From assembly GCA_950295325.1 (NCBI GenBank), contig OX485806.1, positions 14,384,001 to 14,448,000 on the forward strand: DNA of 64,000 nt, read 5' to 3'. Positions 34,000 to 62,625 of the stretch are shown here, one piece after another. Within the stretch, counting starts at the first letter, position 1; each line of letters begins with the position of its first letter. A program made the position numbers and the translations under genes. The notes beneath the pieces were generated by a model, which worked only from the letters and a program-made list of their open reading frames with translations, was not told the origin of the DNA and made no database searches. Origin of the DNA: Polytrichum commune (taxonomy: Eukaryota > Streptophyta > Polytrichopsida > Polytrichales > Polytrichaceae).

Positions 34000-36012
34000 T
34001 GTTGGAATGTAGTGTTAGGGCTCGGTATTTTCCCGTAGTCGTCGTATATTCTTGGATGCGGCGTTTTCCATAACGGTTGTGCTGGATCGAGCCCAAGCAA
34101 AACGTGCATTATGATGTTGTCGAAGGGGATATATGACATATCATTCCAGATATGTTGGACCGCAAATACCGAAAGAATTATAGAATGATTTTTTTGACAT
34201 TTGAGCATTTAGTTTCGGAGATATCCCCATTTTTATGTCCCATTGTTAATATGTTTTTGCGGCCTCATGTACCCATTAGAAAACAAATGTCCTTAGTTGT
34301 ATACCAATTGGCTCATGATCTAGCTTGGAAGACTATGGATAATTTATATGGATGTGAAGAATCTACCATTAAAAAATACACGCTTATCGTTTGCAAAGTA
34401 TTTTTTTCTCATGATGGATTGTTCGGAAGATATACTCATACATCTACTGGACATAGACCAACCGGTACCATCCGTAAGTTTCGTGAAAAAACCGGTTTGC
34501 CTAATGTGGTGGGCGCCATAAATGGTACACACATTATTTTGTCATCTAAGCCCCAATAAGGTTTAATTCCTATGCATTATGATTTTTTTATTAGGAAAAA
34601 ATTTCACAGTGTGTTGTTACAATTTGTGTGCAATTCGAAAAGGTTTTTTTGGAATGTTTGTGCAAGACAACCTGAAGGAGTACATGATGCTGCGTAATTT
34701 GCATGGTCTGGAGTCACTACAAGGAAAACACGAAAAAATGACTGGGATTTCTGACTAAAATCAGTAGTAAAATGCATTAATGACTAACACAATTTTTAGT
34801 CCTCAACCTGGTCATGTCGGACTAGTCGCTCCAGACAAAATGACTACGGTCATATCGGACAGTTTTTGTTTCCTATGGCGCGTTACTCATGGGGTTTGGG
34901 ACCTCGTTTTGGGACGTCCCTCAACCCTTCGTTGTTATCACTATATTTAGTCATACGTATGTGAGTAAATATCGCAATGTGTAATCATGTCCTCTGATTT
35001 GAAGTAGTCATCTCTACTTCACTGGAATTAGTCATGATATGTATTTCCATTACTGCATGGTTTTCCCTCCTAAAGTCCATTTGTCTAGTGCATTCGTTCA
35101 ACAACTGCTTTTAGTCATTTTGTAACTAATAATTGTCATCAGATACATGATCTCTTACCAAATGAAGTCACATTTGGCGGAATTCATTTTGAAGGGCTGG
35201 TCAATATTTTCGGTGTATAGTAGTCAACGTTTCGGTTTTAGTGACCAAATGTAGTCATTCAATTTTATTGTAACTAGTACCATGTTTAAAACTGGTGACT
35301 TTTACATTTATGACAATTGCACTTATACAACAAACATGATGACTAGGCTTTGTCATCATTATCAAACATTCAACGCCATTATATTGGCACACATAGTCAT
35401 TTTATCGATACGACTAGGACCTACATATAACTAAGAATAGTCAAAATATTCAAATAATACACTACAAGATAAAAATACGTATGATCAATTTCAACCACTA
35501 CAAGTAGTCACACATGACTATGAATAGAGTCATTTCCAAATGTCATCGCATTTTCCATTCATAGAAGTTGCATTGTTCTAGTTTACGCGCAATTACGAAG
35601 ACGAGACATATTATCAGAACCAGTTTTAGAGATTGGTGCAGTTGAAGTTCGGCCGTATTTGCTTGGAGATTCAACCTACCCTAGCCGTTCATATTTGTTG
35701 AAAATTTTTAAGGCTAATATCACGGACCCTAAGTTCAATGACAAAAAAAAGTTCGATGAGTATGTGAATTCGGGCAGAGTTGTCATTGAGTATGCATTTG
35801 GAGCATTTAAGAATCGATGGAGAATTCTTAAGCATTTCAATATGAATATGGACAGAAGTGCCACAATAACTTTTGCATGTTGTGTTCTTCATAATTTTTG
35901 TGAGATACATGCCGAGCGGAATCCGTTACCAGAGGACGTAGCTCAGCGTCCGGATCCTTTCGTTGGAGTTTGTAAAGGTGCTATGAGATTGTCTGGCGAT
36001 GGTCGGGCATGA
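34000..36012 (+). pseudogene. Harbinger DDE transposase, interrupted and decayed
   Basis: The N-terminal part (34152-34559) has YRMIFLTFEHLVSEI and TGLPNVVGAINGTHI. After an in-frame TAA at 34557 the frame continues with FIRKKFHSVLLQFVCN and GVHDAA, followed by a TAA at 34696. The rest resumes after the inserted element at 35580 with VYAQLRRRDILSEPV, LLGDSTYPSRSYLL and VVIEYAFGAFKNRWRIL. The second Asp (GDS) and the Glu (VIEYAFG) of the DDE triad are present. The first position reads GAINGTHI where the family normally has GAIDGTHI, so the first catalytic Asp is Asn here. With two stops and an insertion it cannot be functional. Confidence 0.85.
34715..35579. mobile_element. CACTA-like non-autonomous insertion in the transposase
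   Basis: The left end is CACTACAAGGAAAAC, the signature of plant CACTA elements. The 3-bp duplication AGT flanks it (34712-34714 and 35580-35582), and removing the insert plus one AGT restores the transposase frame (FAWSG then VYAQLRRR). TAGTCAT/ATGACTA motifs recur throughout, like CACTA subterminal repeats. The right end does not show the expected CTTGTAGTG; instead CACTACAAG appears in direct orientation near 35459 and 35506, so the right terminus is rearranged. Confidence 0.7.
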
Positions 36013-36144: not shown

Positions 36145-36376
36145 CTATGCGGCCTCCAGCTTTAACTCCTTGATTCTACGAGTAGATTCGCAAAACCGAT
36201 CCAAAAAGGCCGCCATATCACTAGCCAACTTCCTCCTCTTCACGGGTTGCCCTCTAACTCCGGGTAAATTGGAGGCTCAAATTCTTGGCGACTTTGGTTC
36301 CTCCTCCGGAATCTGATGTGTTTCTTCTTCCGGTTGATTTGGCGGCTGATCATCCACACGTACAGGCCGACCGTTG
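36145..36376 (-). pseudogene. Harbinger Myb/SANT protein, C-terminal part
   Basis: In frame with the N-terminal part at 53132-53575 once the Ty3 insertion is removed (MDN joined to GRPVRVDDQPP). It reads an acidic linker (PEEETHQIPEEEPKSP), one TGA, then GVRGQPVKRRKLASDMAAF and a helical end LDRFCESTRRIKELKLEAA before the stop at 36145-36147. The TGA fits decay of CGA. This part lies 16.8 kb from the rest of its gene. Confidence 0.8.
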
Positions 36377-38845
36377 TGTCACGGTATGCGGCGTCGACGG
36401 CCGCACCTTATCCGTTGGGTTTCATCCATCTAGATTTGGATGGATGAATCTAGATGTGGAGAGGAAGGCTCCTAAGTGAGGAGCCTCATCCTTGGCTTGG
36501 CATTCTTGCCAAGTCAAGTCTTGTGAGTTAGTGTGTGGAGAGAGCTTATGTGAGGTGTAGATTGCATGATTTTGCAATAAATCTTGAGTTCTTCTTCCCC
36601 TACTTATACTCTTGGATTCTCCCTTGGTGGAATGAGAGATAGCTTGATTAGTTGTCTGCATTTGAAGAGAGATTTAGAGCTATTATGAGTGTTCTACTCT
36701 CTTCCTTCTCACTTGGCAAGAATGCCTCATTTTTTATGTTTTCTACTTCATTCTTGAGATTTAACGCGCTAGTGAGGGCGTGAAGACAAGGAGCGACGAA
36801 ATTCCGGAGTTTTGGAGCGGAGAAAGCCGCGGATTGTTGAAGCAACAAGAAGAAAGATATGTGTTTGTGAAGTTTAGACATCATTTTGAATTGTGGTGAG
36901 AAATCTTGAATTCTCCACGGAATTTCGTGTCATTTGTTTGTTTGCAAGCTTGAATTCACATTATTGAGCTTGTCAAGAACACTCTTGATTTTGATTCAAG
37001 TGTGATTGCATTCAAAACAATAAACAAAAAAAAAACATTTAAAAAAAAAAGTAGGAAGAGAGGAGAGGCGGAGCTCCTCTTGGAGCTCCTGGTTTCTTAA
37101 CCCGGCGGCACGCGGCGTCAACCCGCGGCAAGCTGGTCCCAACCCCCTCCTCCCTTCCCCCTTCTCCCTCCCGGGCCCTCCCCCCCCCATCCACCGGCCC
37201 CTTCCTCCCTCCTTCCCTCAACTGCCCTCCCCCTATCCCCATCCCCAGGTCTACCCACCTAGGTCCCCCCTATCCCGCCCCCTTAGCCCCCCCTCCAACC
37301 TACAGATTCTCCCCCCCCCTTGGGGCTCTGCAGCCCTGCGGTAGCAGGGTAGGCTGCTGGCCGGTAGCAGGGTAGGCTGCTGGCCGGCAGCAGCCAGCAG
37401 CCCCCCCCCCCAATTTTTCTAATTTTTCTATTTAAAAAATATATTTTTTAATTTTTTTAATTTACAAATCACATGTAGATATATTTCAATATATCTATAT
37501 ATCTATAGAGTTTCCTATATATTCTTGGCTTTGTGAACCAAACCTTTGGACAAGTATTGTTGCCAAGGTTATTGCCATTAATCAAGAACAAATTTGGGGA
37601 CTCGGAGGCGATCCGATACCGGCGTTTCTAAATGCCTTATGGACCATTAAGGCTTTTGGGGATTCGGGAGGGTGGAGCATTGCGGGAGAGGTTCGCGAAC
37701 GCATTCGGCAACACGCGGAGGGCGTTGGATCGCGGCCATTTGCGATTGGTTTATTCACCTTTCACCTCGACTTGATAGAGGTACTTGGCATTGTGGGATT
37801 TTTTATTATTTTTATTTTTATTTTTTTTCCTTTTGCTTAAAAGGATTAGGGGCGGGTTGTGATCGTTGGATTTATTTAGGGGCGGGTGGTGGGCATTGGA
37901 TTTAATTGAGGAGGGTTGTGGGCATTGGATTTATTTAGGGGCGGGTTGTGGACATTGGCTTTATTTAGGGGCAATTTGTGGGTGTTATGAATCATTTTAG
38001 GATGTTGTAGGTGTTAGGATTTATTTGGGGATAAGTTGAGTGTTGTTGTAGATTTTATTTTGGGATAAGTTTATAGATTGTTTAGGGATTGCCTAGGGTT
38101 GGAGTGAATTGGTATATGGAATTACCATTCGACTTAACAAGATAATTTGTTAAGCGCGAATTGTGTTAAGAAACACAAATTCCAGGGACTTTAGAAAGGA
38201 GAGGATTTTGTGTTGTAGACTAGATGAGCGATGTGCTTATCCAATTTCTTTTCTTAAGCAACAGGGGCTCTTCATTTTGACCACCAACCGTAGGCGGGTG
38301 CCGGTTGGTCGTGGTCGCTTTCAATTTTTGTTTAAGTGTTGTTTTGGTGAAGATGATCCAGTGCGGTTATTGCATTGTTCATTGTATGTTGTTGTGGTAC
38401 CTTCCCCCGTTGCGGGTTGTTCTGTTGGAGTCTTCCAACATTGCCTCATTTTGTGTTGTCCTAGTTTGTGATAGGGTATCGTGGGGGTGAAGTCGGAGTA
38501 ATGACCGACGAGACCCTTGTGTGTGCACCAAGTGGGCGGTGCTTTTATTCCCTTATGGTGAGGCTGGGTTGCTGACCAACAGACCATAAGATTTGGTGGT
38601 GGTTGCAGGTGCAGGTTGTCTTTACCTTGATACCACATTAGTTTAGATTGTTGGCTCCAGTGACCAAATCCATTGCGGGTTTATGGTTACATTATCGTTC
38701 TCCGTCTCCGGCATCATCGCAAGGTCGATTATCGGACATTTTGGATACTGAACCAGTGGTAGCACCCGACGAGGCCTTTTAGCCTATTTCGGCGTGGGGG
38801 ACTGCCACTCGGTCTCACGTTCTTTGGGTGGGATCCTTCGACAAG
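36377..38845 (+). other. Ty3 5' terminal/leader region (presumed LTR plus leader)
   Basis: Non-coding. It holds a C-rich block at 37130-37320 and a two-copy GGTAGCAGGGTAGGCTGCTG repeat at about 37340-37390. A minisatellite of about 33 bp (GGGGCGGGTTGTGGGCATTG and variants) lies at 37848-37990, with AT-rich tracts between. Possible primer-binding sequences are TGGGGACTCGGAGGC near 37595 or TTGGCTCCAGTGACC near 38650; neither is convincing. Confidence 0.4.
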
Positions 38846-40552
38846 ATGGAGGAGGAGACGCAAGGCGGCATCCGAGACCGATTTTCTGGTCGAGCAGGAA
38901 CCATTTCCCTGCAAGATTGGAAAATTCGGTTCAGGACATGGATGAGGGAGAAGCCTCAACGCAATACCAATTTCAACGATTGGTATGCGTTTGAGCTTCT
39001 GCCCCAACATTTAGAGCACGAAGCTCTGCAAACTTATGAGCAGTGGAGGGATGCTCATTGGATGGTGTTGCGCCAGGTGGAGCGATACTGGGAGACTCGG
39101 GTGGAGCTTATTTCTGCATTAAAGGAAGGCGCAACTTCTACTTTATTGGCCGCTTCTGTGGTGAAGCCGGAGCCAGCCGAGGGCGTCGTTGTGGTGGATG
39201 TGGAGGGGAGTTTTCCCAGTGGGCCTAAAGATCAGGCTCCCACATCCGCATCTGCGAGTACGTCGAGTCGGAGTATTCCACTCTCTCGGTATGCCTAGGC
39301 TACCCAGGCGGCATTAGCCTGTTTAGGGGCTCCGCCTGAATTTGATCCTCTGCATGAATTCCAACTCCATTTGGAGGAGGAATATGGAGGTTTCCGCCGA
39401 GATCAAATGCAGCGGATTCAGGATTTTCGACGGGAGAAAGAGGACACCCCTCGTACCATGTACACGAGGTTGGCGAGGTTTGCAAGAGAATCTGGAGGTG
39501 TTTTCGCAGAGAGCCAGTTGGTGAAGGTATTTTTGTCCAAGATTGACAAACGCCTCATTGACTTAGCGCTGCCCAGGATCATCATGGATTATGGTGGCCG
39601 GGCGACATTTGCAGAGGCTTTCGCCATTGTCGAGCAGTGTGATCGTGCATTGTGTCAGCACGATGCCACTGATTTGGTGTCCCTGCTAGTAGATTCTAGC
39701 AAATCCCGAAGAGTTCCGGTTGCGGCTGCGGGATTGGCGGAGGCCGAGGTAGACAAGACCATATATTGTTGGTCTTGTGGGCAGACCGGCCACGCTAAGA
39801 AGGACTGTCCTTCGAAGCAAAGGCAAGCCTAGACTGTCACAACTCCGAAGCGGAAACCATTTGTTCCCGCTAGGGGCTCGGCGAAGGGGACAACGGGTAA
39901 TCAGTTATCCAAGCAGTTGAAGTGTTCCCATTGTAGGCGGAACAATCACACGGTAGAGAACTGCTTTGCTCTCCATCCTGAGAAACGTCCTTCTTCCGAC
40001 CGGGAGAAGACATTGGAGGCGAAGATTGGAGCCATGGAGGAGAGGTTCAAAAACTTGGCGTCATCCGGCCAAATCTTGGCCTCACCGTCTTCCTCCGGAG
40101 CTCAGGCTAGTTCTTCCACTTCGGATTACTATATGTTCGGAGCTTCGGGCGAGGTGGTGAGTTCCGCGGACGTGACACGTGCTCAAGCCGTGTCACAATC
40201 CATACCTTCGACCACAAATGAATATGTGGCAAGCTCGCGAGCTCGGGACAATGCGCCCGCGGACCAAATTGGTCAGGCACGACTACCATTATCTTTTGGA
40301 TTGGCCGATGCCGTCCAATCTGTTAGTGGTCGTCATCCGAACGATGAGGTTTCACATTCAGCGACCGATGTGGCGCAAACGTTGGCATCCAAGGTGTTGC
40401 ACACACCTTTGTTCACGGCCATGGAGTGGTCATCGCCAGAGTTCCAACCTGCTAAGGTTTTTCACTTAGCAGGTAGGATTTTGGAAGGGAAGGCATCCTT
40501 ACCTTCTCTGACCGTGGCTAGCTCAAGCCACTACGGACATCCCTGCTTCTGA
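38846..40552 (+). pseudogene. gag: Ty3 gag with two zinc knuckles
   Basis: One reading frame from the ATG at 38846 to a TGA at 40550, broken only by TAG at 39296 and 39830. The capsid-like part contains LQDWKIRFRTWMREKPQRNT and TMYTRLARFARESGGVF...FLSKIDKRL. Two CCHC knuckles follow: CWSCGQTGHAKKDC (about 39770-39811) and CSHCRRNNHTVENC (about 39923-39964), the second separated by a basic linker. Both TAG codons sit where CAG (Gln) would restore the frame. Pol follows in the +1 frame from about 40520, so either a programmed shift or a mutation joins gag and pol. Confidence 0.85.
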
Positions 40553-41498
40553 AGATCATGAGGATGTGGCCAAACGGCGAGCGAGACTTGCGGCAGAGAC
40601 CATTGTGTCTTTTGACGCACACGCCTTAGATGACAAGGCACCGACCACGTCTTATGACTCACCAGTATCCGCGGGTGCAGCCTATCTGTCTGATGTCGCT
40701 GCTAGACCTGTCCGCGAGCGCCGCGGCATTCGACCCGGCGTTGTGCATATGGTGAATGATACAGGAATTTTGGTGGTCAGTCGCACTGGGAGCAATGCTA
40801 CTCGGGTTGCTCCCCGTTGTGTAATGATGGATTCAGGGGCACAGCCAGTTATGATCGGCAAGAGGCTTGCCCAAGAGTTGAGGTTGACGGCCGAGGATTT
40901 GGCTCCCTGTCCATTCACCATTGTCACATCCATTGGTCACGTAAAGCGGGCCATGGGTTATACTCGAGAGCCATTACAGCTTAGCTTCCGAGTAAAGCCT
41001 GGAGATTCACCCGCACCTCTTCTTCTTAGGTGTGCGGTGACGGATGCGACCAACTATGACATTTTAGTTGGTCAGCAAGCATTTTACCCTCTTGGTTTTG
41101 GTTTGGACAACTGGACTGAGGAGGCGTGGATCCGACCAGGTTGGTCGGCTGGGGATGGCCGCATGAAACTTATTCCCGTGGCTTTCGCGGCGGCCGCGAC
41201 CATAGCACCATTATCTATGGTTTTTGGATGTGGTGCTATGGTGGACACATTACCTTATGGTTCCGCATTGTTGGAGGAGTCATTGGCCTTCATGGGGAGT
41301 ACAGACGATCAACGGGATATGGCACCTAAGGGTGCATTAATGCGCCATCCCAAGGATCCCCTTCCTCCTTGGCGTGATTCTGCCGAGCTATTTCGGAGGT
41401 GCAAGGATATTGTTCACTCTCTCACTCCTAGGACACCGGTCATACCGAGTGTCCTTTTGACATTGGCAAATCCCATTTTATGGCAGCCGCCAGACGCG
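40521..41498 (+). CDS. pol: Ty3 pol: aspartic protease region
   Basis: The pol frame opens near 40520 (PASEDHEDVAKRRARLAAE) and is uninterrupted through the protease. The active-site block is MMDSGAQPVMIGKRLA near 40825-40872, with the D-S-G of retroviral-type aspartic proteases. A second block YDILVGQQAFYPLGFGLD lies near 41058-41110, corresponding to the usual flap-to-ILG region. The enzyme would cleave the element's polyprotein. The linker to the next domain (about 41120-41490) has no recognised fold. Confidence 0.8.
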
Positions 41499-42450
41499 GG
41501 GATTACTTTGGTGGAACTGTTTGGGGGCATCGGCACGGGCTTAGCAGCCGTATTGGAGGCTGGCCTCACGGTCAGACGGTATGTCTATGTGGACAACTCT
41601 CCAGTATCCACCCGTGTGGCTCGTCACCATCTTCACCAGTTGATGGTATTGTACCCCCAGCAGTTACACCCAACTGCCATTCGTGGGTGTTTTTCACGTC
41701 TCCCTTGTGATGTTACACTCATCAGTGAGGCCGACTTACGACACTTGGGCCCGGTGGATATCGTGATTGCGGGATGGCCATTCCAAGGCCACTCACGTGC
41801 TGGAGCAGGCCGAGGTTTAGAGGATCCCAGGTCTAGCCTTTTCTGGGACCTCATCCGGCTTATGCAATGGTGGTTTACCCACCAACCTTCCTCTCCAGGG
41901 TATATCTTCGAGAATGTACCTTTGTTGGAAGACTCTCGGGACAAGGTGTTGGAAGGCGGTCATTATGTCCGTCAACACCTTGGAGATCCCATTTTTGTGG
42001 ATGCTGCAAGCATTGGTTCTTATGCCCACCGGCCTCGGTGGATTTGGACCAACCTCGCACCGTCATCTACTTTAGCTGCAGCATTTTCTGTAGTGTCTCC
42101 ACCTTTGGATCAGAAGGTGGATGACATTTTGGATCCAAACCGGACCTCTTTGCCGGTTGTTCGAGATGATTTACCCCCGTTGGCATTGGTCAACAAAGTG
42201 GGGGCACCACGGAAGGCCTTTCCCACCTTTATGACGTTTCCACAGTCATTCGCCTTCCGCGATCGGGGGCCAGGTATGGTGTGGGATGCTAACACCAAAA
42301 TCCACACTGAACCGTTGGTTGACGAACGGGAGCGGACCATGGGATTCCGCACTGGCACCACCGCAACTCCTAACCTTTCTGAGGGCCAACGACGCTTCGT
42401 GTTGGGCCAAGCCATGGATCTTCATACCATGGTGTTGACTGTTGGTTTAT
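41499..42450 (+). CDS. C5 cytosine methyltransferase-like domain inside Ty3 pol
   Basis: About 310 residues between protease and RT, in the same frame. C5-MTase motifs occur in canonical (Dnmt1/Dnmt3-like, not DRM-permuted) order. Motif I is VELFGGIGTGLAAVLEAG (SAM binding) and motif II-like is RYVYVDNSP. Motif IV is VIAGWPFQGHSRAG, motif VI is IFENVPLLED, and motif VIII is AHRPRWIWTN. Near the end are ERERTMGFRTGTTA and motif X-like RFVLGQAMD. The ENV and RxR elements are intact, but motif IV reads P-F-Q where active enzymes have P-C-Q: the nucleophilic Cys is Phe (TTC at 41781-41783, one base from TGC). This copy should therefore be catalytically dead, though it could still bind SAM or DNA. 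Retrotransposons that captured C5-MTases are known in some algae and dinoflagellates (de Mendoza and colleagues 2018, from memory). Confidence 0.88.
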
Positions 42451-43574
42451 GCCTTGCATTGCAACGGCATCATGGTGACCAGTTGTTCTCTCTGGGGACA
42501 GAGGATTCTGGTCAGGGGGCACAATGGTCCACATCCATGGAGGAAGAAATTGAGGTCATGGTTGGACAAGCCGAACGAATCTGTCGATTCGAGCAGCAGG
42601 TGATGGAGGAGCTCCAAGCTCAACGGATTTATACTGCTTTGGCTTCTTCACCTCCGGTGGTGGCTTCATCATCACATATTGTTGGTGATGAAGAGGGGAT
42701 GGATTCTATTGCTAGCACGGAGGTTGGGGGCATGGTTAATGCCCCTTCCTCCCATTAGCAGTTAGAGTCCGTGCCAGCACCAGGTGGCTCTCTTCTAGTG
42801 GAGAGGGAGACCACAGAGTTTGATGATTGGCCATTGGAATTGGGCCCTCATCTCACTGGTGCTGAGGCACGGAAAGTACGAGCATTTATTCGCTCGTACC
42901 GTAGGTGTTTTGCTTTTAGCCTTCAAGATCTTGAAGGTTATAAAGGTCCAGTTAATCGGAAGACCAAGTCGGATCGATATCCTATGCCAATCCCGGAGGA
43001 GTTGTTCGATGCCCTTGGATTTGCTCGAGTCTTTAGCACGTTGGACTTGAGATCCGGCTATCACCAACTCCCATTACTTGTGGGAGACCGAGTGAAAACC
43101 GCATTCTGGGGAATTGATCAAGATGGGAAGGATCAACTTTACCATTGGAAGTTTCTTCCGTTTGGCCTGAAGAATGCACCTGCGGAGTTTCAGAGAGTGA
43201 TGGACCAAGTTCTCTCTGGCTTATTCTTTGCTCGGTGTTACATTGATGACGTTATCATTTTCAGTATAACACCACAGGAGCACGTAAGGCATCTTCAAGC
43301 CGTTTTTGAGCAGTTGCAGCGGTGGGGATTGCGCTTGCACCACGGCAAATGCAAGTTTTTCCATGACCGGCTGGCATATCTAGGGCATATGATTGTTTCA
43401 GGAGGTCTTGGGGTACAACAAGCTAAGGTGGACGCCTTGCAGAAGATTCCGGCACCGATTGATGTGCCGAGACTTCGTGTTTTCTTGGGCTTGGCGAATT
43501 ACTATCGGCGATTCGTCAAGAACTTTAGCTTGATCGCCAAGCCTCTCACCATTCTCACGAGCAAGGACCAACCG
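42451..43574 (+). pseudogene. pol: Ty3 pol: reverse transcriptase, internally deleted
   Basis: A TAG at 42756 interrupts the linker, then RT follows in frame. Palm blocks are present: SDRYPMPIPEELFDALGFAR, STLDLRSGYHQLPL, PFGLKNAPAEFQRVMDQVL and the catalytic YIDDVIIFS, then LGHMIVSGGL and FLGLANYYRRFVKNF. The fingers segment normally found upstream (the block ending in WRMCVDYRxLN) is missing: GYKG is joined directly to PVNRKTKSDRYP, an in-frame loss of roughly 70-80 residues. A second TAG lies at 43575. Confidence 0.85.
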
Positions 43575-45459
43575 TAGACTTGGGGTCGTGAGCAACAACA
43601 GGCGTTTGAGACATTGAAGCAGAAACTGGGTACGGCTCCAGTGCTTCGACGTCCAGATGTCTCCAAATCTTTCCAGTTGCATACAGATTGGAGTTCATTG
43701 GGTTTGGGAGCAATTCTCACTCAGAAGGATGATTTTAGTCGGGAGTATGTTGTTGCTTACGCTTCGCGAAGCAATAACACGGCGGAGGCTAATTATTCAT
43801 CCTACGAGGGAGAAGCATTGGCGGCGGTATGGGCTATTGCCCATTTTCGGCCGTATATTTATGGTCAACATTTTACTTTAGTGACTGACCATCAGCCGTT
43901 ACGGTGGCTCATGGAGTCGGATAAGCTTACTGGAAAGTTTGCCAGGTGGGTTTTATTGCTCCAAGAGTATGACTTTGAGGTGGTACACCGTGCTGGGATT
44001 ACCAACATGGATGCAGATGGACTCTCACGCAATCCAAGTCCTTCAGATGAGAACTTGACCGGGGCCAGATGGCATGGAGATTGTGATCGAAAGGCGGTTC
44101 CAGATTGGCACGCGGCTGCCTACCTCATTTTATTTTTTGGTGTATCTGTTGAGATTCCGATACAGGGCTCGGATGATGAGACTGATCGGCCTCAAGCTAT
44201 TGCGGATATATGGGAGGATCTTCCCGTATTGCATAAGCTTCAACAGGGTACCTTTCCTTTGTCTATTTCGGCAATGGAAAGGGATAGGATTGGACATCGA
44301 ATAACAAGGTTCCGTTGGGAGAACGGTTTGTTATTTCGATTCTGGCCGGATGGGACAAGGTGTATTGTTCCTAGGCCGGATCAGAGGGCCTCCTTGGTGC
44401 GACAAGTACACGAGGAACTTGGCCATTTTGGCATACGCAGGACACATTCGATGTTGCGTGGCCAATATTGGTGGACTGGCATGTATCAGTAGGTGGCTGC
44501 CTATGTCGGGAGGTGTGAAGTTTGTGACCGGGTTAGGTCTAGCTTTAACACCTTATCACCTCAGTTACAGCCCTTACCTATCATGGGATTGGGCTACCGT
44601 TGGTCGCTGGACTTTGCAGGGCCGTTGGTGGTTACACCACGTGGAGCAAAGTACGTTTTGGTAATGGTGGAGCATTTTAGCAAGTGGATTGAGCTTGTTG
44701 CTCTACCCCAAAACTCTGCAGAGTTGGCCGCGGCCGCCTTTTTGGATCGTGTGTTAGCACGTTTTGGAGCACCGGCTGAGGTGTTGACGGACCAAGGGAG
44801 GGAGTTCCTTGGTGCTTTTGAGGAATTATGCACTAAGGCGCTCATAGATCACCATACCACCTCTCGGGATCATCCGGAGGCAGATGGTTTGGCTGAACGA
44901 GTTGTTCAGACAACCAAGCGTGGCTTGAGGAAGTATGGATTACTTCGGGGAAGCCACCGGGATTGGGACCTTATGTTGCCTTGGATTGCTATGGGCTATC
45001 GATTTAGTAGGCAGGCCTCTTTGGCTTCCTACAGCCCGTATCAGTTGTTGTATGGACGTGAGTCTATACTCCCGAGTCTTATTCGGGAAAAACTAGCTCA
45101 TGTTGTGAACTTGGATGACCCAGACCTTTGGGCAGAGTGTTTGCAGGAGCGGGCTCAATTCTTCCAGAGGGCCATGCCTATGGCCATGGAGAATTTGTCC
45201 ATTGCTCAGCACCGTGATACATTGCGTTATGCACGCATTCGCAGTGGTGCTTACCGACCTCAGTTGCGGAGATTCCGGCGGGGGGATTATGTCTATCTCC
45301 AACGTGAGGCGCCTACGACATTGGATGTCAGGGTGGGACGTACTATCCTTCGGGTGAAGGAGGTGTTGCCGAGTGGTTTGTTGTTGTTGGAAGGCAAGGA
45401 TAGCAGGCAATGTCGCGAGCATTCCAAAAACTATGGCCCATGTCATCTACCTATTGAGG
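43575..45459 (+). pseudogene. pol: Ty3 pol: RNase H and integrase
   Basis: RNase H: HTDWSSLGLGAIL, SYEGEALAAVWA, TDHQPLRWLM and DADGLSRNP. Integrase: zinc-binding HEELGH...CEVC (HHCC), split by TAG at 44490. The catalytic core keeps all three acidic residues in WSLDFAGP, VLTDQGREF and HPEADGLAERVVQT. A C-terminal GPY/F-like region follows (GDYVYLQREAP...LRVKEVLPSGLLLLEG). The frame then runs into the inserted element at 45460 and stops at 45483, but it continues at 52511 with the PHD finger. No chromodomain is seen. Confidence 0.88.
45451..45459 (+). repeat. 9-bp target duplication, left copy
   Basis: CTATTGAGG here and at 52511-52519 flanks the 7-kb inserted element. Removing the element and one copy restores the pol frame (HLPIEG followed by TVHPEL). 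Confidence 0.85.
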
Positions 45460-45476
45460 GGGAAAAGCTATTTTGC

Positions 45477-45518
45477 GAGCGGTGAGCGGTGAGCGGTGAG
45501 CGGTGAGCAGTGAGCGGT
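45477..45518 (+). repeat. GAGCGGT heptamer array, left (6 units)
   Basis: Six head-to-tail GAGCGGT units, the fifth reading GAGCAGT, directly inside the terminal GGGAAAAGCTATTTTGC. The mirror array at 52424-52490 has at least nine perfect units. Such subterminal arrays often bind transposase; that function is inferred here. Confidence 0.85.
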
Positions 45519-45664
45519 AAGTTTTGTAGAATATTGAAATTTTGTGTGGTGAAACATGCCCTATGACCGCGGTGTAAAGCTAAATATTGAAATATTTATT
45601 GACAAAAATAACCTATAACCATGGTTGAGGAACCTATACTATATTTGCTTGCACATTCTCTTAT

Positions 45665-46150
45665 AAGGTTTGTAGGTTGGGAATGGGTCTCGGATGGTTA
45701 CAGGTTGTCATTTGAGGTGGACTAAGTCCCACTTGGAGAAGGCCTGGGATCCGAGGCCTCGTGGCTGTGGTATCATTTCAGATTGGGTATAAGGTTTAAT
45801 TTGTAGGTTGGGAATGGGTCTCGGATGGTTACAACTTGTCATTTGAGGTGGACTAAGTCCCACTTGGAGAAGGCCTGGGATCCGAGGCCTCGTGGCTGCG
45901 GTATCATTTCAGATTGGGTATAAGGTTTGTAGGTTGGGAATGGGTCTCGGATGGTTACAGGTTGTTATTTGAGGTGGATGAAGTCCCACTGGGAGAAGGC
46001 CTCGGACCCGAGGCCTCATGGCTTGAGCCCCTACATTCTGATTGTGTTTAAAGGGTGTGGTTTCTGGGTGGGTCTCGTCATTTCAAGTGGATGGGCTACT
46101 TTGCAGGAGGCCTCGGATCCGAGGTTTGTTGGCCTTGGGGTTTGCTGTCT
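45665..46150 (+). repeat. tandem repeat, about 126-131 bp, 3-4 copies
   Basis: Units start AAGGTTTGTAGGTTGGGAAT at 45665, 45791 (with a 5-bp insertion) and 45922. Each contains GTCTCGGATGGTTACA and GATCCGAGGCCTCGTGGCT. A degenerate fourth copy follows to about 46150. Copies one and two are nearly identical, so the expansion is recent. Confidence 0.8.
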
Positions 46151-46369
46151 GATTTGAGGTGAAGTTTATGGTTTCAGGTTGAATGTAGGCATGCCATGTT
46201 TGGGTTTCATGTTTAGCTACATTCAACCTGACTCCATAAATTTGAAATCGAATCATTGGTTTCAATTTGGGTCTCGACATGCCCAATGGCTTAGATTTCA
46301 TGTTCGGTCTCGGCATGGCCACTTTGGACAAGGCCTAGGGGTTTTATGTTTAGAATTTAGTGTCGTTGG

Positions 46370-46490
46370 TGTACACTTTAGTGAACTTGTAGACCATTGT
46401 GTAATATAGGTGGGCACCTCATATCATTGTTGAACATACTCATGCAGAGATATTAGTAAAGACACTTGAATGCCACGTTTCATGAGGTGA
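46370..46490 (+). repeat. dispersed repeat, copy 2
   Basis: Diverged copy of 8190-8335 (GAACATACTCATGC, CACTTGAATGCCAC, CATGAGGTGACAGTAATGG). Confidence 0.6.
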
Positions 46491-46845
46491 CAGTAATGGT
46501 TTAGGGTCATTTATTCAAACCAGCATTCGCCTAAAATCGCAAGCAATCATTGAAAAAGTGTATGAAAACCATAATACAAGAATAGTGGAAACCCTTAAAG
46601 AAACATGAGAATGGTATGAACTAATACGCCGATTATGGAAGTAAGTGATGAACAATAAAATTATTCGTTAACTCAAACGTTAACAAGAAACCAAGTGGTG
46701 TTCGAAAATATTTTAAACAATATCCCATAAACTCCGAAAGTAATACACATACAATGAATTCCATGCGGAATGAGTGCATAAAATGAAAAACCAACGGAAA
46801 AAAAAACGGTATATTAGATAGTACACAGACATACACATGAAGCTA

Positions 46846-48545
46846 TTACATCAAATCCGAATCACTATGATCACCTGATGATGAAGACATTCTAGAATCA
46901 CTAATATTTGAATCAGAGGAGGCATGACCATCAGATTCTAAAGCTTCTATATCCAAAACTCTAAAACTCTTCCCGGACGATATTTAGATGTAAAAGTCTG
47001 ATAAAAACCTCCAGCTAGTTGATTAGCAATATCATTTGCATATGTAAGAAGTTGCCAAGACTTTGGAGGGCTGGGATTGAATTTAGGGTCACAAAAAAAA
47101 GGCCGGTGAATAGGATAGCTCAATTTATCGCATCTGCAAATGCCAATGGTACCATGTTCATAACTCAACTTTAGAAGAAATGACAGCAAAAAACATAACA
47201 CTAGTAAGAGAATTTTTATGGATCATACTCACTTAGTAAAGCGAGATCTTTTCACAATCCTCTCAACGGGGATATCTTCACCCTCATGATCCTCTAAACT
47301 AGTGACACGGTCTTCAATAGTGACTGCAGAGGCTGCTCTAGAGATAAATCAATGGAGCAAGTAAGGCCTCAAAAATATCAACATCAGCCTCTAATGCCGC
47401 AATGTGACGGTGCACATTGCGGCATGCATGAATGGAAGATCCTACAAATAAAGAAGTTGGAAAAACTTAGTGGAAAAACCACAATAAATTTTCAGAGCAA
47501 AAAAATATTAACCATTAACCAACTGAAATGGAAGATTACAAAGACATACCGGTCGATGCCGTGCAATCTAGAATAATATCCCATGGGGAGCTACATGCTT
47601 CAATTAACATTTGCATTAGAAACACGGACTTTTCACGAGGCCCTCGCCATGGTGTGGATCCATTAGTTAGCTAGTCCTCACGAGAGACCAAGTTCTGGAG
47701 AATATCATCCCGTGCAACATCCACCCCATAAGGATCCAATTCAGGGATATGGCGAAATGAAAACTTCGATGCAGGTGACCCCGGCACGCTCCTAACCGCC
47801 AATGAAATAATGAACCTCATGGTCTACAATGTACCCGACATAAAAATCAATATTACTTTACAAAGTAAACAACACAACTAACTTAAGGATGAAATTGAAA
47901 CTGAATGCGGTGATGAGAAAGAAGGTTGAAGCTTTATCTTACAGTTGATGCTGGATTTATTGGGGATGTAAGATGAAGGCGGTTCATTTCCCACCACTCT
48001 TTCCGAATTGCAAAACCATACGATTTGCAATATCCAAGAATATTGGACTTCGTACTCATGTGAAAAGGGTGAAACAAAATAATTGCCCCATCGTCGTGCA
48101 AATGTTCGTCGGCAAAGTCAATTAGTGGTTGTAACGACTCTTTCGATTCTTGATTCCAAGCGGGAATGGATGATGGTGGGTTTGATATGCCAGGAACAGG
48201 AAGACTTTCCGGTATATCTGCAAGAATCAAGTCCAAACAGGGATGGTCCTCCGGAGAACCCTTGTAGTGCCGGGTTTTGTCTTTTGAGTGATGCACAATC
48301 AAAGGAGATTGTCACAATTTGTACATGACAAATGACTTCAATAAAACTAGGTTAAGGGTGAATAGAACAAGCATTCAACTAGTTCCATTCAACGAGGAGT
48401 TTAAATCATTTTGAAGTTTACCTACCTCTACAACAACCACAAGACATGAATCTCCCTGATGATGTGTGACTTCATAAAAAAATTGTAAGCAGTGACTGTC
48501 GGACAATAACAAATTTGAGGACCCTTATCGACAGGATTAAAAGAA
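46846..48545 (-). pseudogene. beta-class N4/N6 DNA methyltransferase-like gene relic, spliced
   Basis: Probable exons in transcript order: about 48545-48422, about 48304-47943, 47823-47550, 47441-47233 and 47133-46846, with GT-AG junctions. The order of motifs fits beta-class amino-methyltransferases. The catalytic half comes first (LDLILADIPES, then DDGAIILFHPFH, YGFAIRKEWWEMNRLHLTSP and FIISLAVRS). The SAM-binding motif I comes near the C-terminus (SVFLMQMLIEACSSPWDIIL, DCTASTGSSIHACRN, RHIAALEADVDIFEALLAPL). The tail is Ser/Asp-rich. Motif IV reads DIPE rather than DPPY/DPPF. Frameshifts occur near 48490, 48310, 47345 and 46965, and a TAG lies in exon 3, so it is dead. Bryophytes and ferns are reported to have N4C methyltransferases; whether this relic derives from one is untested. 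Confidence 0.6.
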
Positions 48546-48584
48546 TCCTCGCTTTATACATTGCCTAGTACTAGAAACACACTC

Positions 48585-49745
48585 AAATGAAAAAAAAAAC
48601 CCCAACCCCACCCACTAATCTACCACCAGTTCCCCCTCAAAATCAAACTTACAAAACATTCAACCCATATACATGAGCATCCTCACCCCATCCCATATGG
48701 TCTCTCGGTACCGAGACACCCTCAAATGAGAAAAAAAAAACCTCAACCCACCCACTAATGTACCACCAATTCCCCTTTAAAATGATACTTAGCAAAAATC
48801 AACTCATATACATGAGCATCCTCACCCCCTCTCCTATGGTGTCTCGGTATCGAGACACCCTCAAATGAGAAAAAAAAAACCCCAACCCACCCACTAATGC
48901 ACCACCAATTCCTCTTCCAAATGAGACTTAGCAAAAATCAAGCCATTATACATGAGCATCCTCACCCCCTCTCCTATGGTGTCTCGGTACAAATGAGAAA
49001 AAAAAAACCCCAACCCACCCACTAATCTACCACCAATTCCCCCTCAAAATGAGACTTAGCAAAAATCAACCCATATACATGAGCATCCTCACCCCCTCAA
49101 ATGAAAAAAAAACAAACCCCCTAATATCTTTGGACCTTCATAACTTCCACTTGCGTTGTCCAAATCTAACAAACAACCGCTCTATTGTTATTTACATTCA
49201 ACGTAGATGGCAATGCACACCTTAGTTGTTCCATTCAAGCAAGTACTCAGAAAGTTATGCCTCTTCAAACCTTAGCAGTGGCCGGGGAGTGGCTCCCAAG
49301 ACTGCTAAGGTTTGAAGGGGCATAACTTTCTCAGTACTTGCTTGAATGGGGCAAGTGAGGTGTGCATTGACATTTAAGTCTCATTTTGAGGGGGGATTGG
49401 TGGTAGATTAGTGGGTGGGTTGGGGTTTTTTTTTCCTCATTTGAGGGTGTATCGGCACCGATACATCATAGGAGAGGGGGTGAGGATGCTCATGTATATG
49501 GGTTGATTTTTGCTAAGTCTCATTTTGAGGGGGAACAGGTGGTAGATTAGTGGGTGGGTTGGGTTTATTTTTTCTCATTTGAGGGTGTTTCGGCACCGAA
49601 ACACTATAGGAGAGGGGGTGAGGATGCTCATGTATATGGGTTGATTTTTGCTAAGTCTGATTTTGAGGGGGAATAGGTGGTAGATTAGTGGGTGGGTTGG
49701 GTTTTTTTGCAAGTGGAAGTTATGAAGGTCCGAAGATATTAGGGG
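48585..49745. repeat. 1.15-kb palindromic satellite
   Basis: Left arm: about four units of roughly 125-150 bp with ACCCACCCACTAAT, CCACCAATTCC, GACTTAGCAAAAATCA, CATATACATGAGCATCCTCA and TCTCGGTACCGAGACA. Right arm (49370-49745): three inverted units of the same repeat. The centre near 49285 is a stem CCTTAGCAGT/ACTGCTAAGG flanked by a longer inverted block (GCATAACTTTC...CAAGCAAGTACT). The flank block CTAATATCTTTGGACCTTCA at 49121 is mirrored at about 49717-49742. A long transcript through it would form double-stranded RNA. Confidence 0.85.
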
Positions 49746-51249
49746 CTAAGTTGTGTCATGTAATGACGCTCTCGGCCCCGAGAAGGGGTAGGGGGTTGGG
49801 TTCAATCTTTGTTTCGGGGACCCTCTCGGCTCCGAGAGGGTAAGGTATGTGTTGAACGGGGCCTGATTAGTATTGACGTCCTCCACCCTGTTGGTTCCAA
49901 GACCTCCCCCCACATTCCAAATTTCACACTCAATTTCAACCAAATATTTTTAGCCTCTAATCAAAATCACTAAATACCTTACCTTCTCTCAAGCACAACC
50001 TAAACATCCTCCACTTGGAGCCATTCCCGGGTCAATGATGTCTAGGGCTTGGTCCTGCGCGAGCGCCCCACTGAAATTGGCATATCTCCTACCTCACACC
50101 TCCACTGTCGCGACCCTTGCTAGCTTTTCTTCACTTAGCTCAATCACTTTCCAACCCTAGCAAGTGTCCCGAGCGCTAACCTGCACATCCCACGCACATG
50201 CATGGTTAGCTTTCAAAACCGCGGACCTTCAATCTCATATTTGGTCACCAAACCCTCCTACACATGCATTCGGGACTCTTCCCCTTAGTAGGTAACCCAT
50301 GGCTAAGGTGGACTTCCATCCATGGAAGTCCACTCCTTAGTTGGTCATAGTGTTGGTAGGACAACACTACAACCACCCGGAGCACATTGCCAAGTATGCT
50401 CCGGGGGGGTCGGTCGGCAAAGCCGCCTCACCCATATAAGCCTCTAGGACTTTTGGCGGGGCCCCTCCCCCACCGTCAACATCCCTTTTGTCTCTCTACC
50501 AAGAGTTGGGGCCAAGTAGACATTTTCCCTTAGCCGCTGGGTCTAGAAGCCTCCCTGCAGCTTCAGACCTTCATAACTTCCACGTGCAGTCTTTGAATCT
50601 AACAACCAACCACTCTATCGTCATCTACGTTTCACGTTGATGCCGATGGACACCTCACTTGCCCCATTCGGACAAGTACCAAGGAAGTTATGCCTGTTTA
50701 AACCTTTGCAGTCCCGGGAGCCACTCCCAGGCCACTGCTGTTCCAGGGCGCTGTCCCGGGACATCATCCCACTCAAAGTGCTATATCTCCTAGCTCACAC
50801 CTCAGATTGAGGTGTTCTTGAGCGTTCTAGAATTGGGACGCCATAAGCTACTCATAGCTTATGGCTTTACCCTCATGACTCCTAGTCTTCGTGGGTGGGA
50901 GGTGTTCTAAACGCCCGGGGCCCTCACCCACATTAGGATCACTTGGTCCCTCTCACCAATGGCGTCACAAGTCCCGGGTGTCACTCCGGGGTCCCCTCTG
51001 TGCCCATAGTGTTGCGGGCACTCCTTATGGAGAGGTGCGCGACATCCACCCCCTACTGCCTCTTGGAACCGAGAACCCCATAATGTGACATAACAAAACA
51101 TTCATCAAAGCAACTCCCCCTAACCTGAAATCCTTTCAACCTACCATTCAATCTATAGTGTGACTTATTTTCATCCATATTCAGAGAACTCAATTTCACA
51201 TGCCATTTTTGCAAAAATCTAAACGTGTATCTGCCCTTATTGCATATTA
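49746..51249. other. GC-richer non-coding interior of the 7-kb element
   Basis: Includes a diverged direct copy (about 50560-50735) of the 49128-49290 block: ACCTTCATAACTTCCAC, AACAACCAACC, CTTGCCCCATTC and GAAGTTATGCC. It also contains palindromes such as GGACTTCCATCCATGGAAGTCC near 50310-50332. No domain-bearing frame was found. Confidence 0.5.
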
Positions 51250-52007
51250 TCTGTGACCCAAACAAAATGTGCAAATTGAGTATTCTTTTGTCTCCTCGTC
51301 TGATCCGCTCTTATTGGGATTGTTGTGATGCTCACTCTCTGTCATTGATGGTTCGCGTGATCCTCTATGCTCCTGTTCTTCCTCTATTGGTTGTAGTTCC
51401 ATGTTCCTATTTGATGACCTGTGTCAACCTCTCCACACGCATTGGATGCAATCCTTGGAGAAACATACCAAAAACAGGAAACTCAAAACTCGAGTTGGTA
51501 AGTCTATACTTGCCTCTATATTTCATGTATAGTTCATTTTTTATAGTTCAACTACATTGATTCCGCCATTATCCGGATGAGTTTCCCACCCGGCATTCAA
51601 GGAAATTGATTAGGCGCAACAAGAAGGCCCCGATAACAAAACACGCCAATAATTGTGCCTCAACCCTATCACTGAAAGCCAAAGTGCACAAATTGTGCAT
51701 GCTTCCAGCCCCTGCCTTAGGATGCATCGTCTCATTGGATTCCGGCACGCCCCCAAAGGTTCAACAATACTACTTGACGATTTCGTAGCTGCCAGCATGC
51801 ATTTGTCCTAACTTCAAGGAGATGGCGACTAAAGCAATTGGAAAACGGGGTCAATGGGCCAACTGTAAGCATTTATATTATTTGTTTACTATAGTGTGTG
51901 ATTTGGACTCGGATTCAGACACGTTCATTCATGCAGCTAGTTTTAGCTTCAACGAAGTGAAGCGAGTTTTGAAGGGTGGTTTGTTGAAGTACCTTGATTC
52001 TTAGAGT
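51250..52007 (+). pseudogene. SWIM-like zinc-finger protein fragment
   Basis: A probable exon ends at a GTAAGT donor near 51499 (SMFLFDDLCQPLHTHWMQSL). The distal part at about 51780-52004 reads CPNFKEMATKAIGKRGQWAN followed by CKHLYYLFTIVCDL and then FIHAASFSFNEVKRVLKGG. The CPxF...WANCKHLYYLF pattern resembles SWIM-type zinc fingers (CxC...CxH). SWIM fingers also occur in MULE transposases, so this may be a remnant of transposition machinery or a captured host gene. Frames are broken. Confidence 0.4.
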
Positions 52008-52423
52008 TTTCTGTTTCTTTAAAGAAACATATGTATGCAAGATATGTTATAATGATGATGTAGTGAGACTAAAAGGGCCACTACAAGACATTTGACGCAC
52101 CACATGTATTTCTCTTTCCCAAAGTTGCGTGACCCTTTTAGAGTACCACTAATTCTCATTATACTAAAACAATATGTGTTTGACTTGAGACAAACCCATA
52201 TTTATTACTGATATTACTTCCAAATGTTCAATTAAACACCCTAAACCATATTTTTCACTGATACAATAACATTTTTTCCTGTATCAGAGCCCTTAATTGT
52301 CCACGGTCATAGGTCCCACTGTTCACTAAGTTTAGAAAAAAAGTCCTAAAAATAATTTTAGTCCAAAAATACCATAAACTTACTGCTTAAAATAACATTT
52401 TAATCAAAATATCTCGGAAGTTA
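52008..52423. other. right subterminal region of the 7-kb element
   Basis: AT-rich, non-coding. Inverted weak similarity to the left subterminal region (TATGACCG blocks at about 45562 and 52300). Confidence 0.5.
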
Positions 52424-52490
52424 CCGCTCACCGCTCACCGCTCACCGCTCACCGCTCACCGCTCACCGCTCACCGCTCACCGCTCACCGC
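52424..52490 (-). repeat. GAGCGGT heptamer array, right (9 units plus partial)
   Basis: Nine perfect CCGCTCA units and a partial tenth (CCGC), in inverted orientation to the left array. Unit number differs between the ends (6 against 9), showing independent expansion or contraction. Confidence 0.9.
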
Positions 52491-52510
52491 TTGCAAAATA
52501 GCTTCGTCCC

Positions 52511-52743
52511 CTATTGAGGGTACAGTTCATCCTGAACTGGCCGTCGTGCCAGAGGGTCTTTCATGTTTTGTGTGTGGAGAGAAGAAAGGAGCGGCTACTA
52601 TGTTCTTGTGTAATCAGTGTCAACGCGGTTGGCACATGGCATGCTTGAGGCCACCCTTGACTTCTCTACCATCTGGACAGTGGAGTTGTCCTCGCTATCG
52701 AGGATCTTCGGTACTTGGTGCTTCCACCAATCGTACTCAATGA
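52511..52743 (+). CDS. pol: Ty3 pol C-terminus: PHD finger
   Basis: Continuation of the Ty3 polyprotein after the 7-kb insertion (PIEG then TVHPELAVVPEG). It reads CFVCGEKKGAATMFLCNQC, QRGWHMACLRPPL and LPSGQWSCPRY. This is the C4HC3 PHD layout: CxxC, CxxC, WHxxC and WxC, but the last ligand is Tyr (PRY where PxC is usual), so the second zinc site is weakened. PHD fingers read histone tails; at the end of an integrase polyprotein it could steer integration, as chromodomains do in chromoviruses. That role is inferred. Confidence 0.8.
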
Positions 52744-53131
52744 TCCTGTGTGGTTTTCATCATCTTGTGCCTGCCCAAATGGCAGATGAGGAGTTATGGC
52801 TTAGAGACGCAATCAACATGAGGCGGTGGATTTAATTTTTTGGGATCTGATGGCCAAACATCAAAGGCGATTAAGGATGGGGCTCACCTTGCACCCAGCC
52901 TACAGTTCCTTGGAATAACGTTTACCACACTAGTTAGTTGCGGAGCAATCTTTCATTATCCATGCCCTTTAGATTGGCATTGGTTCTAGCTGCTTGGCGG
53001 GACTCCTAGTCAGCTGAGGGGGGCATATCGAGGTGTGTTGTTTATGTGTGACTTTGCTATGTTTTAGTGTTGTTTGTTAGTGGTGGTTGGTACTCGAGCT
53101 GCAATGACACACGATCGCTATTTACACGACA
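52744..53131 (+). other. Ty3 3' region: polypurine tract and terminal remnant
   Basis: A frame-shifted tail (ADEELWLRDAINMRRW) suggests a few more codons were once present. A polypurine tract AGGGGGGC lies at 53019-53026, and then about 105 bp run to the terminus TTTACACGACA at 53131. Confidence 0.5.
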
Positions 53132-53575
53132 GTTGTCCATACCACCAGGTACCCCGTCAGCCTTAGCTGTGCCGGAAAGAACCTCGTCAATCATAGTAAA
53201 CCAAATCCATTGCGAACCCGTATTGTCGCCCGTTACGTTGTGTAATTTCTTCTCCTTGTGGTAATGGCACTTAAGCTTGTCCCACTTGTCCCGAACTTGC
53301 GTCCAAGTTCGTCGTGCCTCACTTGGATGGTCCTTTATAACCTGCTCTCGGATCCGCTCCCAATGTTGTTGCTTGAAAACCGCGGTGCCATAATTCTCAA
53401 TGCGCTCCTTTACCAATTCCACTAGGTATTTCGTAGCTCTGTGGGTCCACTCCCTTGCTAGAAGAGGTGGTGACCCTAAACCCACAACGTTCCCGTCATT
53501 TGAAGGTCCCGGAGCGCCTAAAATTGGAGGCGATGCAAGCACCATGGTCCCCCAAAATCCTAATCCTTCCTCCAT
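53132..53575 (-). pseudogene. Harbinger Myb/SANT (trihelix-like) protein, N-terminal part
   Basis: From the ATG at 53575 the frame gives a DNA-binding region: REWTHRATKYLVELVKERIE, KQQHWERIREQVIKDHPSEA and RTWTQVRDKWDKLKCHYHKE. The tryptophan spacing is that of Myb/SANT-like DNA-binding domains encoded by PIF/Harbinger elements, where this protein helps the transposase bind DNA. The frame is then cut by the Ty3 insertion at MDN; the C-terminal part lies at 36145-36376. This half is free of stops. Confidence 0.85.
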
Positions 53576-53787
53576 GGTAAAAATAAAGAGCCTCAACTTC
53601 TAAATGACCCGCCCAACTAAATCCTCGCTATGCTTAAGTGAATGAGAGAGCGAAAAATGCGAAATGAGAGCTTAAGGTGAGCTAAGCTCTTCTTATGCCT
53701 CATTACGAAGGAGTTGGGCCTATTATTTTTAGGAAACGGTTAGGATAATTACCTGAGGAATTTCCCTAAAAGGTAAAGGAATTCCCC

Positions 53788-62099: not shown

Positions 62100-62520
62100 T
62101 TGTTCCTTCGTTGGCTAGTGTGTCGGCTATTTCATTGCCTTTGATGCCCGTGTGGACCCGTACTTTATGTATATGTACTAAGTGTGGTGTTAAGTAAATT
62201 TGGTGTATTATGGCGGCTATGAGGATTTTGTCTGGGTGGTGATGTTGTGAGGTTGGGTGTTGTATATGATTATTGAGTAGATATATGCTATTAAGGCTAT
62301 CTGTAAAGATGTGTGTTTCGATTTGTGTGACTTTAATGGTTTTGATTGCTATGAGTATAGCATTTAATTATGCTCTGAGTATGTTTTGATATTCTGGTAG
62401 TCGTTATGATATGCGGATGTTTGTGTTGGGGCTATATACTCCTGAACATGTGATGTCACCTTCTATTTGACCTTCGGAGTTCTTAGTTGGGGGGATGAAT
62501 GAGCCATCTGTGTACATGCA
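62100..62520 (-). pseudogene. retroelement RNase H domain
   Basis: Type-1 RNase H blocks in order: CMYTDGSFIPP (first Asp), LRA-stop-LNAIL where the family has the catalytic Glu (TAA at 62368), IFTDSLNSIY (third acidic position), and HKVRVHTGIKGNEIADTLAN (His plus final Asp). A further TAA lies at 62404. The loss of the catalytic Glu codon to a stop makes this copy dead. Confidence 0.88.
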
Positions 62521-62625
62521 TTGTTGTGGGTGGAATTTGGGGGGGTGTTGGCGGTCGTATTTAGTTGGGAGGTTTGATTGGGGGATTGTAGGTGGTGGGG
62601 GGGTGTTTTTTATGGGGGCATTTTT

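Follow-up and report, generated by a model that had tools for sequence, protein, structure and literature searches.

A many-copy Ty3-type retrotransposon family with a predicted DNMT3-type cytosine methyltransferase in the moss Polytrichum commune

A 64,000-nt stretch of the genome of the moss Polytrichum commune (assembly GCA_950295325.1, contig OX485806.1, positions 14,384,001 to 14,448,000; this whole stretch is called the window) contains an element whose sequence places it, as a decayed copy, in a self-primed Ty3-type family of retrotransposons with a captured C5-cytosine methyltransferase (MTase) of the DNMT3 type. We are almost certain of the identity of the element and of the domain. 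The element spans 36377 (start of terminal repeat A1) to 53131 (end of terminal repeat B) and is flanked by GTTG duplications.

An earlier note, made from the letters of the window, had placed a C5-MTase domain at 41499..42450 and proposed a profile search and a count of related elements as checks. We found a significant PF00145 match in the open reading frame (ORF) 40512-42758 (33.4 bits, cut-off 22; E 4.3e-8), which bears the claim out. The assembly has 407.8 Mb in 64 contigs; seven of these, C1-C7, of 42-78 Mb each, account for about 406 Mb, and seven chromosomes would fit Polytrichaceae. A search of it for the MTase gave at least 119 copies at 62-100% identity (119 scored of 597 candidates, 119/119 matched), a lower bound for the family. 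Thirty loci were fetched for sequence comparison (L001 is the window copy), and a second subfamily, B (L033/L034), has 62-63% identity in the MTase. The AlphaFold model of the MTase domain of locus L011 has a predicted local distance difference test (pLDDT) score of 91.8. Hence, with this profile score, the 119 scored genomic matches and this model, a chance match is out of the question.

The MTase is, by sequence comparison, of the DNMT3 type, a class assigned from the best match of the homologous L011 domain and from an unrearranged motif order. Among PDB entries, the L011 domain matched DNMT3 best (DNMT3A/B closest), with DNMT2 at E 0.05 only. The motifs of the window copy, which we take to be I (41508-41543), IV (41769-41804), VI (41901-41921), VIII (42018-42053) and an X-like block (42390-42422), follow one another in this order. 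The DRM class was rejected because its rearranged motif order is absent, motif I preceding IV, VI, VIII and X. An origin from DNMT1 or CMT is unsupported, as neither is among the PDB matches of the L011 domain, and so is a bacterial or phage origin, the best PDB match being DNMT3. A search of IMG/VR with a single MTase query confirmed 0 relatives; with the MTase alignment, 80 of 342 candidates were kept, which align to parts of the domain at 23-52% identity, the top ones at 29-31%.

The earlier note had these motifs in canonical order. The order holds; motif IV of the window copy reads GWPFQGHS, the catalytic Cys being replaced by Phe (codon 41781-41783). Hence, the window copy should not methylate, and the idea that it does so itself finds no support. 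At the 30 fetched loci the residue is Cys in 27, Phe in L001 and L002, and Tyr in L028, and the Cys is present in 45 of 47 database relatives. The Cys, the EN of motif VI and the Arg of motif VIII are invariant in 30/30 rows of the MTase alignment, in which identity to the first row is as low as 34%.

A DSGA protease motif lies upstream of the MTase in the same ORF; Pfam protease matches were below their cut-offs. In the window copy and in open copies, the order is protease, MTase, reverse transcriptase (RT), RNase H and rve integrase, which is the Ty3/gypsy order with an MTase inserted. The placement of the MTase between protease and RT thus stands, in a Ty3-type family of a land plant. In the window copy, the frame changes near 40510-40550, so gag is not continuous with the protease-MTase ORF; RT is deleted internally, and an insertion at 45461-52509 divides the integrase. 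Besides the TAG at 42756-42758, TAGs end ORFs at 39298, 39832, 43577 and 44492. The features of the window copy are as follows.

36373-36376 (+): left target-site duplication GTTG; right partner at 53132-53135
36377-36710 (+): terminal repeat A1, begins TGTC; 96% identity to A1/A2 of copy L031/L032
36499-36514 (+): A1 segment (self-primer) to which the primer-binding site is the reverse complement; 16-nt exact match
36711-36726 (+): primer-binding site, complementary to A1 itself, directly after A1
38783-39298 (+): gag fragment, closed by an in-frame TAG; aligns to the gag part of open-frame copy L031
39299-39832 (+): gag fragment with CCHC zinc knuckle (PF00098, E 3e-5)
39833-40552 (+): gag C-terminal fragment; frame lost relative to the next ORF
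40512-42758 (+): protease-MTase ORF; DSGA protease motif at 40830-40841
41487-42500, about (+): C5-cytosine MTase domain (PF00145), predicted DNMT3-type via the homologous domain of L011
42756-42764 (+): conserved stop TAG (42756-42758), then CAGTTA, which fits CARYYA
42759-43577 (+): RT (PF00078, E 9e-27); compared with L031, deleted internally at about 42946
43578-44492 (+): RNase H and start of the integrase zinc-binding domain (Pfam profiles)
44493-45460 (+): integrase core, rve (Pfam profiles, alignment)
45461-52509 (no strand): nested DNA transposon (~7 kb) splitting the integrase, with GAGCGGT repeats in its inverted ends and a 7-9 bp duplication around TATTGAG
52510-52743 (+): integrase C-terminus with PHD finger (PF00628, E 6.5e-11)
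53016-53025 (+): polypurine tract, abuts repeat B
53026-53131 (+): terminal repeat B, ends GACA; no A2-B2 unit (short form)
53132-53135 (+): right target-site duplication GTTG

Locus L002 (C4:14518155) differs from the window copy at 12 positions in 4014 bases. The two have in common the motif IV Phe, the RT deletion and the in-frame stops, and the 5' flanks seen differ. Hence, the defective element was copied, and its lineage was probably moved by proteins acting in trans. The unlike flanks also make a segmental duplication unlikely; no 3' end of L002 was found. Two other MTase copies lie on the same strand 5.6 kb apart (G000:C5:25591600-25598218), perhaps in a nested or tandem element.

Between the MTase and RT, 29 of the 30 loci have TAG followed by CARYYA. 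With subfamily B included, CARYYA is kept through the variants CAGTTA, CAATTA and CAATCA. An MTase-frame stop stands at the homologous codon in 27/30 loci; the TAG is out of frame in L006 and L030, and L008 diverges there. Other stops inside copies vary from copy to copy or are common to few. We take UAG CARYYA to be the leaky stop context of the tobamovirus type. In L031/L032, Gag, protease and MTase form a single open frame of 1364 codons, stop to stop, followed by TAG CAATTA and by RT to PHD finger in the same frame; subfamily B has 1386 codons, then TAG CAATCA. In the window copy, too, RT follows in the frame of the MTase downstream of its TAG. The claim that the MTase is in frame with protease and RT is thus right for the protease, which is in the same ORF, and for RT it needs amending, since RT lies beyond a conserved stop and there is no simple fusion. 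The simplest reading of the conserved stop is that the MTase would be made with Gag, and RT to integrase only by readthrough.

We found that 21 of the 47 database relatives (P0001, P0002, P0004-P0008, P0010 and P0019-P0031) end 69-128 residues past the MTase, and the Marchantia models P0032, P0035 and P0037 end 66-68 residues past it; these ends are those of protein models. P0003 ends 83 residues past the MTase in unlike letters and was left out of the 21.

We compared the ends of 27 copies, the window copy included, mostly chosen because their open frames are long, so not a random sample. Sixteen read A1-internal-B1-GC-A2-B2 (L026 from the 3' side only), eight read A1-internal-B (L020 among them is rearranged), and three gave no 3' end. 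Split direct repeats of this kind, a trait of DIRS and Ngaro elements, are thus present in 16 of the 24 copies with a readable 3' end (L031/L032, L133/L134 and L143/L144 are examples of these 24). DIRS and Ngaro elements use a tyrosine recombinase and are not known to make a target duplication; the moss element instead has an rve integrase and 4-bp duplications, exact in 21 of the 23 copies with both ends and matching at 3/4 bases in the other two. Subfamily B, which is outside the 23, has the full form and a duplication matching at 3/4 bases.

The element termini are TGTC...GACA, and the two ends are A1 and B2, not one long terminal repeat (LTR) twice. The spacer between B1 and A2 is GC in 16/16 full copies and gives GACAGCTGTC in 15, L009 having the first two A2 bases changed. 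A polypurine tract abuts the first B in 23/24 copies. The primer-binding site is an exact reverse complement of a segment of the element's own LTR (L031 3449-3463 with 3659-3673; L033 2290-2302 with 2536-2548); its sequence differs between the two subfamilies, and the self-complementarity is kept. This complementarity points to self-primed reverse transcription. Because the polypurine tract comes before the first B and the primer-binding site right after A1, ordinary reverse transcription would give B-GC-A as the LTR. Hence, the integrated ends TGTC and GACA would lie inside the LTR.

The DDE integrase, split repeats and 4-bp duplications suggest integration via a site inside the LTR. The A2/B2 joint is exact in 11 of 16 copies and carries substitutions in two; L009 is 7 bases short near the A2 end, L022 is without 24 bases, and L028 has a 12-base polypurine tract inserted. 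End-joined LTR circles keep such junction marks, and the L022 and L028 joints look like these. A two-LTR circle would yield A1-internal-B1-GC-A2-B2, and a one-LTR circle A1-internal-B; the short forms could instead come from recombination between B1 and B2. The circle model does not account for the position of the extra unit, which all 16 full copies carry on their 3' side and none on the 5' side.

As a whole, these results are best explained, in our judgement with moderate confidence, by a self-primed Ty3 family with a captured DNMT3, a leaky stop, a Gag-level MTase and methylation of complementary DNA (cDNA). What the sequences themselves establish is the anatomy, the conservation of the stop context, the lower bound on copy number, purifying selection on the MTase, and the terminal repeats with their target duplications. 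Open-frame copies would produce Gag, protease and MTase from one ORF ending in the leaky-type TAG-CARYYA, and occasional readthrough would extend the product through RT, RNase H, integrase and PHD finger. The output of Gag-protease-MTase would then exceed that of RT-RNaseH-integrase-PHD, the MTase would enter the particle at the level of Gag, and it may methylate the element's own double-stranded cDNA before integration, possibly to the element's benefit. To this last step, with its predicted target, we give somewhat less than even credence. More doubtful, and offered tentatively, is the full proposal of a long-lived streptophyte Ty3 lineage that combines a capsid-level DNMT3 MTase by way of a leaky stop, cDNA methylation, and integration of a circular intermediate not by way of LTR ends but at a palindrome (GACA-GC-TGTC) that lies within its LTR.

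Several observations weigh against the cDNA-methylating, Gag-level MTase. Two database relatives, P0009 and P0034, have no motif IV Cys, and to judge from the L001/L002 pair, transposition is probably still open to copies whose MTase is dead. P0011, P0016, P0034 and P0036 continue into RT without a stop, P0034 being a Marchantia and P0016 a Closterium model, and the stop context is known as DNA from the P. commune genome only. No clear footprint of long-term CG self-methylation was found in the CpG observed/expected ratios of L031/L032 (coding parts 0.73-0.81 vs flanks 0.50-0.56) and subfamily B (0.66 vs 0.77 in flanks). The DNMT3 of KnitGypsy-Dnmt3, an LTR Gypsy element of Klebsormidium nitens, showed no activity in yeast, a result that the authors regard as inconclusive (de Mendoza et al. 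2018, PMC5890265).

Among the alternatives, an MTase that acts on the host's chromosomes, whether close to new insertions or at other sites, perhaps with the PHD finger in setting up a tolerated heterochromatic state, is unlikely. The PHD finger lies downstream in the same frame, and free Gag-level MTase could reach the nucleus; however, the sequence gives no sign of a nuclear target. We found that copies decay mostly by C-to-T change (per site, CG 0.0199, CHG 0.0200 and CHH 0.0115; A/T transitions 0.0024), a pattern in all contexts, with CG equal to CHG, as expected if the copies carry host plant-type methylation. The earlier note had suggested, as candidate effects, that the MTase could methylate copies of the element or host DNA, or interfere with silencing. 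With decay at its fastest in CG and CHG sites, copies have no visible protection from silencing by the MTase.

Quite improbable is an MTase whose substrate is RNA (the genomic RNA or the fold of the self-primer) in place of DNA. RNA is the substrate of C5-MTases of the DNMT2 kind, and the element would prime itself from its own RNA; however, the domain is closest to DNMT3A/B, with DNMT2 at E 0.05 only. RNA methylation has been raised for long interspersed nuclear elements (LINEs) in PMC5890265.

We consider it just as improbable that the MTase domain is a passenger that catalyses nothing and serves Gag structurally. The domain is encoded in the Gag ORF, and the L001/L002 pair apparently transposed with the motif IV Phe; against this stand the retention of the Cys at most loci and relatives, the invariance of Cys, motif VI EN and motif VIII Arg across the alignment, and the selection on the domain. 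In 25 copies (5 of 30 were dropped), the pooled ratio of nonsynonymous to synonymous rates (dN/dS) of the MTase is 0.29 (300 pairs), and the nearest-neighbour value is 0.46. Changes found in a single copy number 105 nonsynonymous to 55 synonymous (N/S), with no departure from the neutral expectation of 2.3 (P 0.26), which rests on assumed mutation weights. In comparison, changes common to at least two copies have N/S 47/61 (P 2e-8 vs neutral; P 4e-4 vs singletons), and shared changes in the tail from MTase to stop have N/S 28/14 (P 0.017 vs the domain). In-frame stops number six among singletons and zero among shared changes (P 0.08). Hence, copies rot freely once inserted, and the lineages that moved kept the MTase sequence; by these counts, the MTase is under purifying selection in lineages that moved.

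That the conserved TAG is a decay accident, or is read as sense in P. commune, is very improbable. Other TAGs do occur inside copies, but these stops vary, whereas this one occupies the same codon in 27/30 loci (out of frame in two more) with CARYYA kept; a moss host also implies the standard genetic code. Finally, a single accidental joining of a host DNMT gene to a piece of a retrotransposon, which the single copy within the window would have allowed, is refuted by the genomic copy search, with its 119 scored copies and second subfamily, and by the 47 database relatives.

These 47 relatives include six from Marchantia polymorpha, two from Closterium and two under bacterial names of metagenome-assembled genomes. 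The Marchantia proteins (P0032-P0035, P0037 and P0038) and the Closterium proteins (P0014 and P0016) have 36-49% identity to the query MTase and are labelled unnamed or hypothetical. The Marchantia models have the protease-MTase order and P0016 the MTase-RT order, as in moss; P0034 and P0016 differ in having no stop before RT. P0001 and P0039, deposited under the bacterial names (Obscuribacterales, Minisyncoccia), are probably eukaryotic contamination of bins.

Two arrangements were found. The MTase lies between protease and RT, or directly before RT, in the window clade, Marchantia, P0011, P0016 and P0036; it lies between RNase H and integrase in P0039, P0040 and P0042-P0046 (and in P0041, whose integrase is cut short), and P0017 reads RT-RNase H-MTase. 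The MTase tree splits the two arrangements weakly (67/16), and in the RT tree P0039, with its MTase between RNase H and integrase, groups with the other arrangement at 87/89. From the sequences, one capture moving between pol positions and two captures are both compatible with the trees, which do not decide.

The earlier note had expected a land-plant genome to extend the known kinds of MTase-bearing retrotransposon. The host does extend them; the DNMT3-Gypsy kind is itself already known, because KnitGypsy-Dnmt3 has been described in Klebsormidium. KnitGypsy-Dnmt3 resembles the moss family as a Gypsy element with a DNMT3-type domain in Pol, purifying selection (Ka/Ks <0.2) and DIRS-like repeats (PMC5890265). 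Compared by description only, the moss family differs in its land-plant host, its more than 100 copies, its MTase in the Gag-protease ORF before a leaky-type stop, and its PHD finger; the available KnitGypsy text mentions neither stop nor PHD. Klebsormidium is not among the organism names borne by the 47 relatives, most of which have none. SymbioDIRS-Dnmt3 of Symbiodinium likewise has a DNMT3-type domain in a retrotransposon polyprotein; it is a DIRS-class element with a tyrosine recombinase, in contrast to the rve DDE integrase and 4-bp duplications in moss (PMC5890265).

The primer-binding site complementary to the element's own LTR is shared with the self-primed Ty3 elements Tf1/sushi and Tcn1; unlike these, the moss element has a PHD finger rather than a chromodomain, plus an MTase and split repeats. 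Tcn1 self-priming in plants has been described in a survey of plant LTR elements (PMC6317226), in whose main text the words 'methyltransferase' and 'PHD' are absent. An absence of DNMT-bearing retroelements from land plants such as tracheophytes is stated in PMC6338049. No published moss or Marchantia DNMT-Gypsy element was found in a literature search made mostly without subscription papers. We regard as new the land-plant host, the Marchantia and Closterium relatives, a second place for the MTase within pol, the stop of leaky type, and the split repeats around a DDE integrase with 4-bp duplications.

Together with the Marchantia proteins, the moss family places DNMT-bearing elements in bryophytes. 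Its open-frame and motif-IV-dead copies form a many-copy natural experiment on why an element that is itself a target of DNA methylation would encode a methyltransferase. From the leaky-type stop follows a sharp prediction of stoichiometry, and the terminal repeats are a testable case for DDE integration from inside the LTR.

Some minor features of the window were also recorded. The nested transposon at 45461-52509 has tandem and inverted repeats inside, at 48574-49708. The retrotransposon is flanked by a DDE_Tnp_4 ORF (35524-36012) and an opposite-strand Myb/SANT ORF (53057-53599), which we take to be parts of a Harbinger-like transposon; it seems to have inserted in or beside this transposon. 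At 61357-63816 (-), a LINE-like region has an RNase H ORF and an adjoining ORF whose PCIF1_WW match falls just short of the threshold (30.8 bits, cut-off 31.1), and is possibly another retroelement with an RNA-methyltransferase-like domain. Rfam and tRNA scans gave no match. An F-box/WD40 gene lies at 10811-12559; among the matches listed (best 120 of 410), its named relatives are Ceratodon purpureus (68%), Sphagnum tenellum (64%) and liverworts (54-59%), and one other match has 96%.
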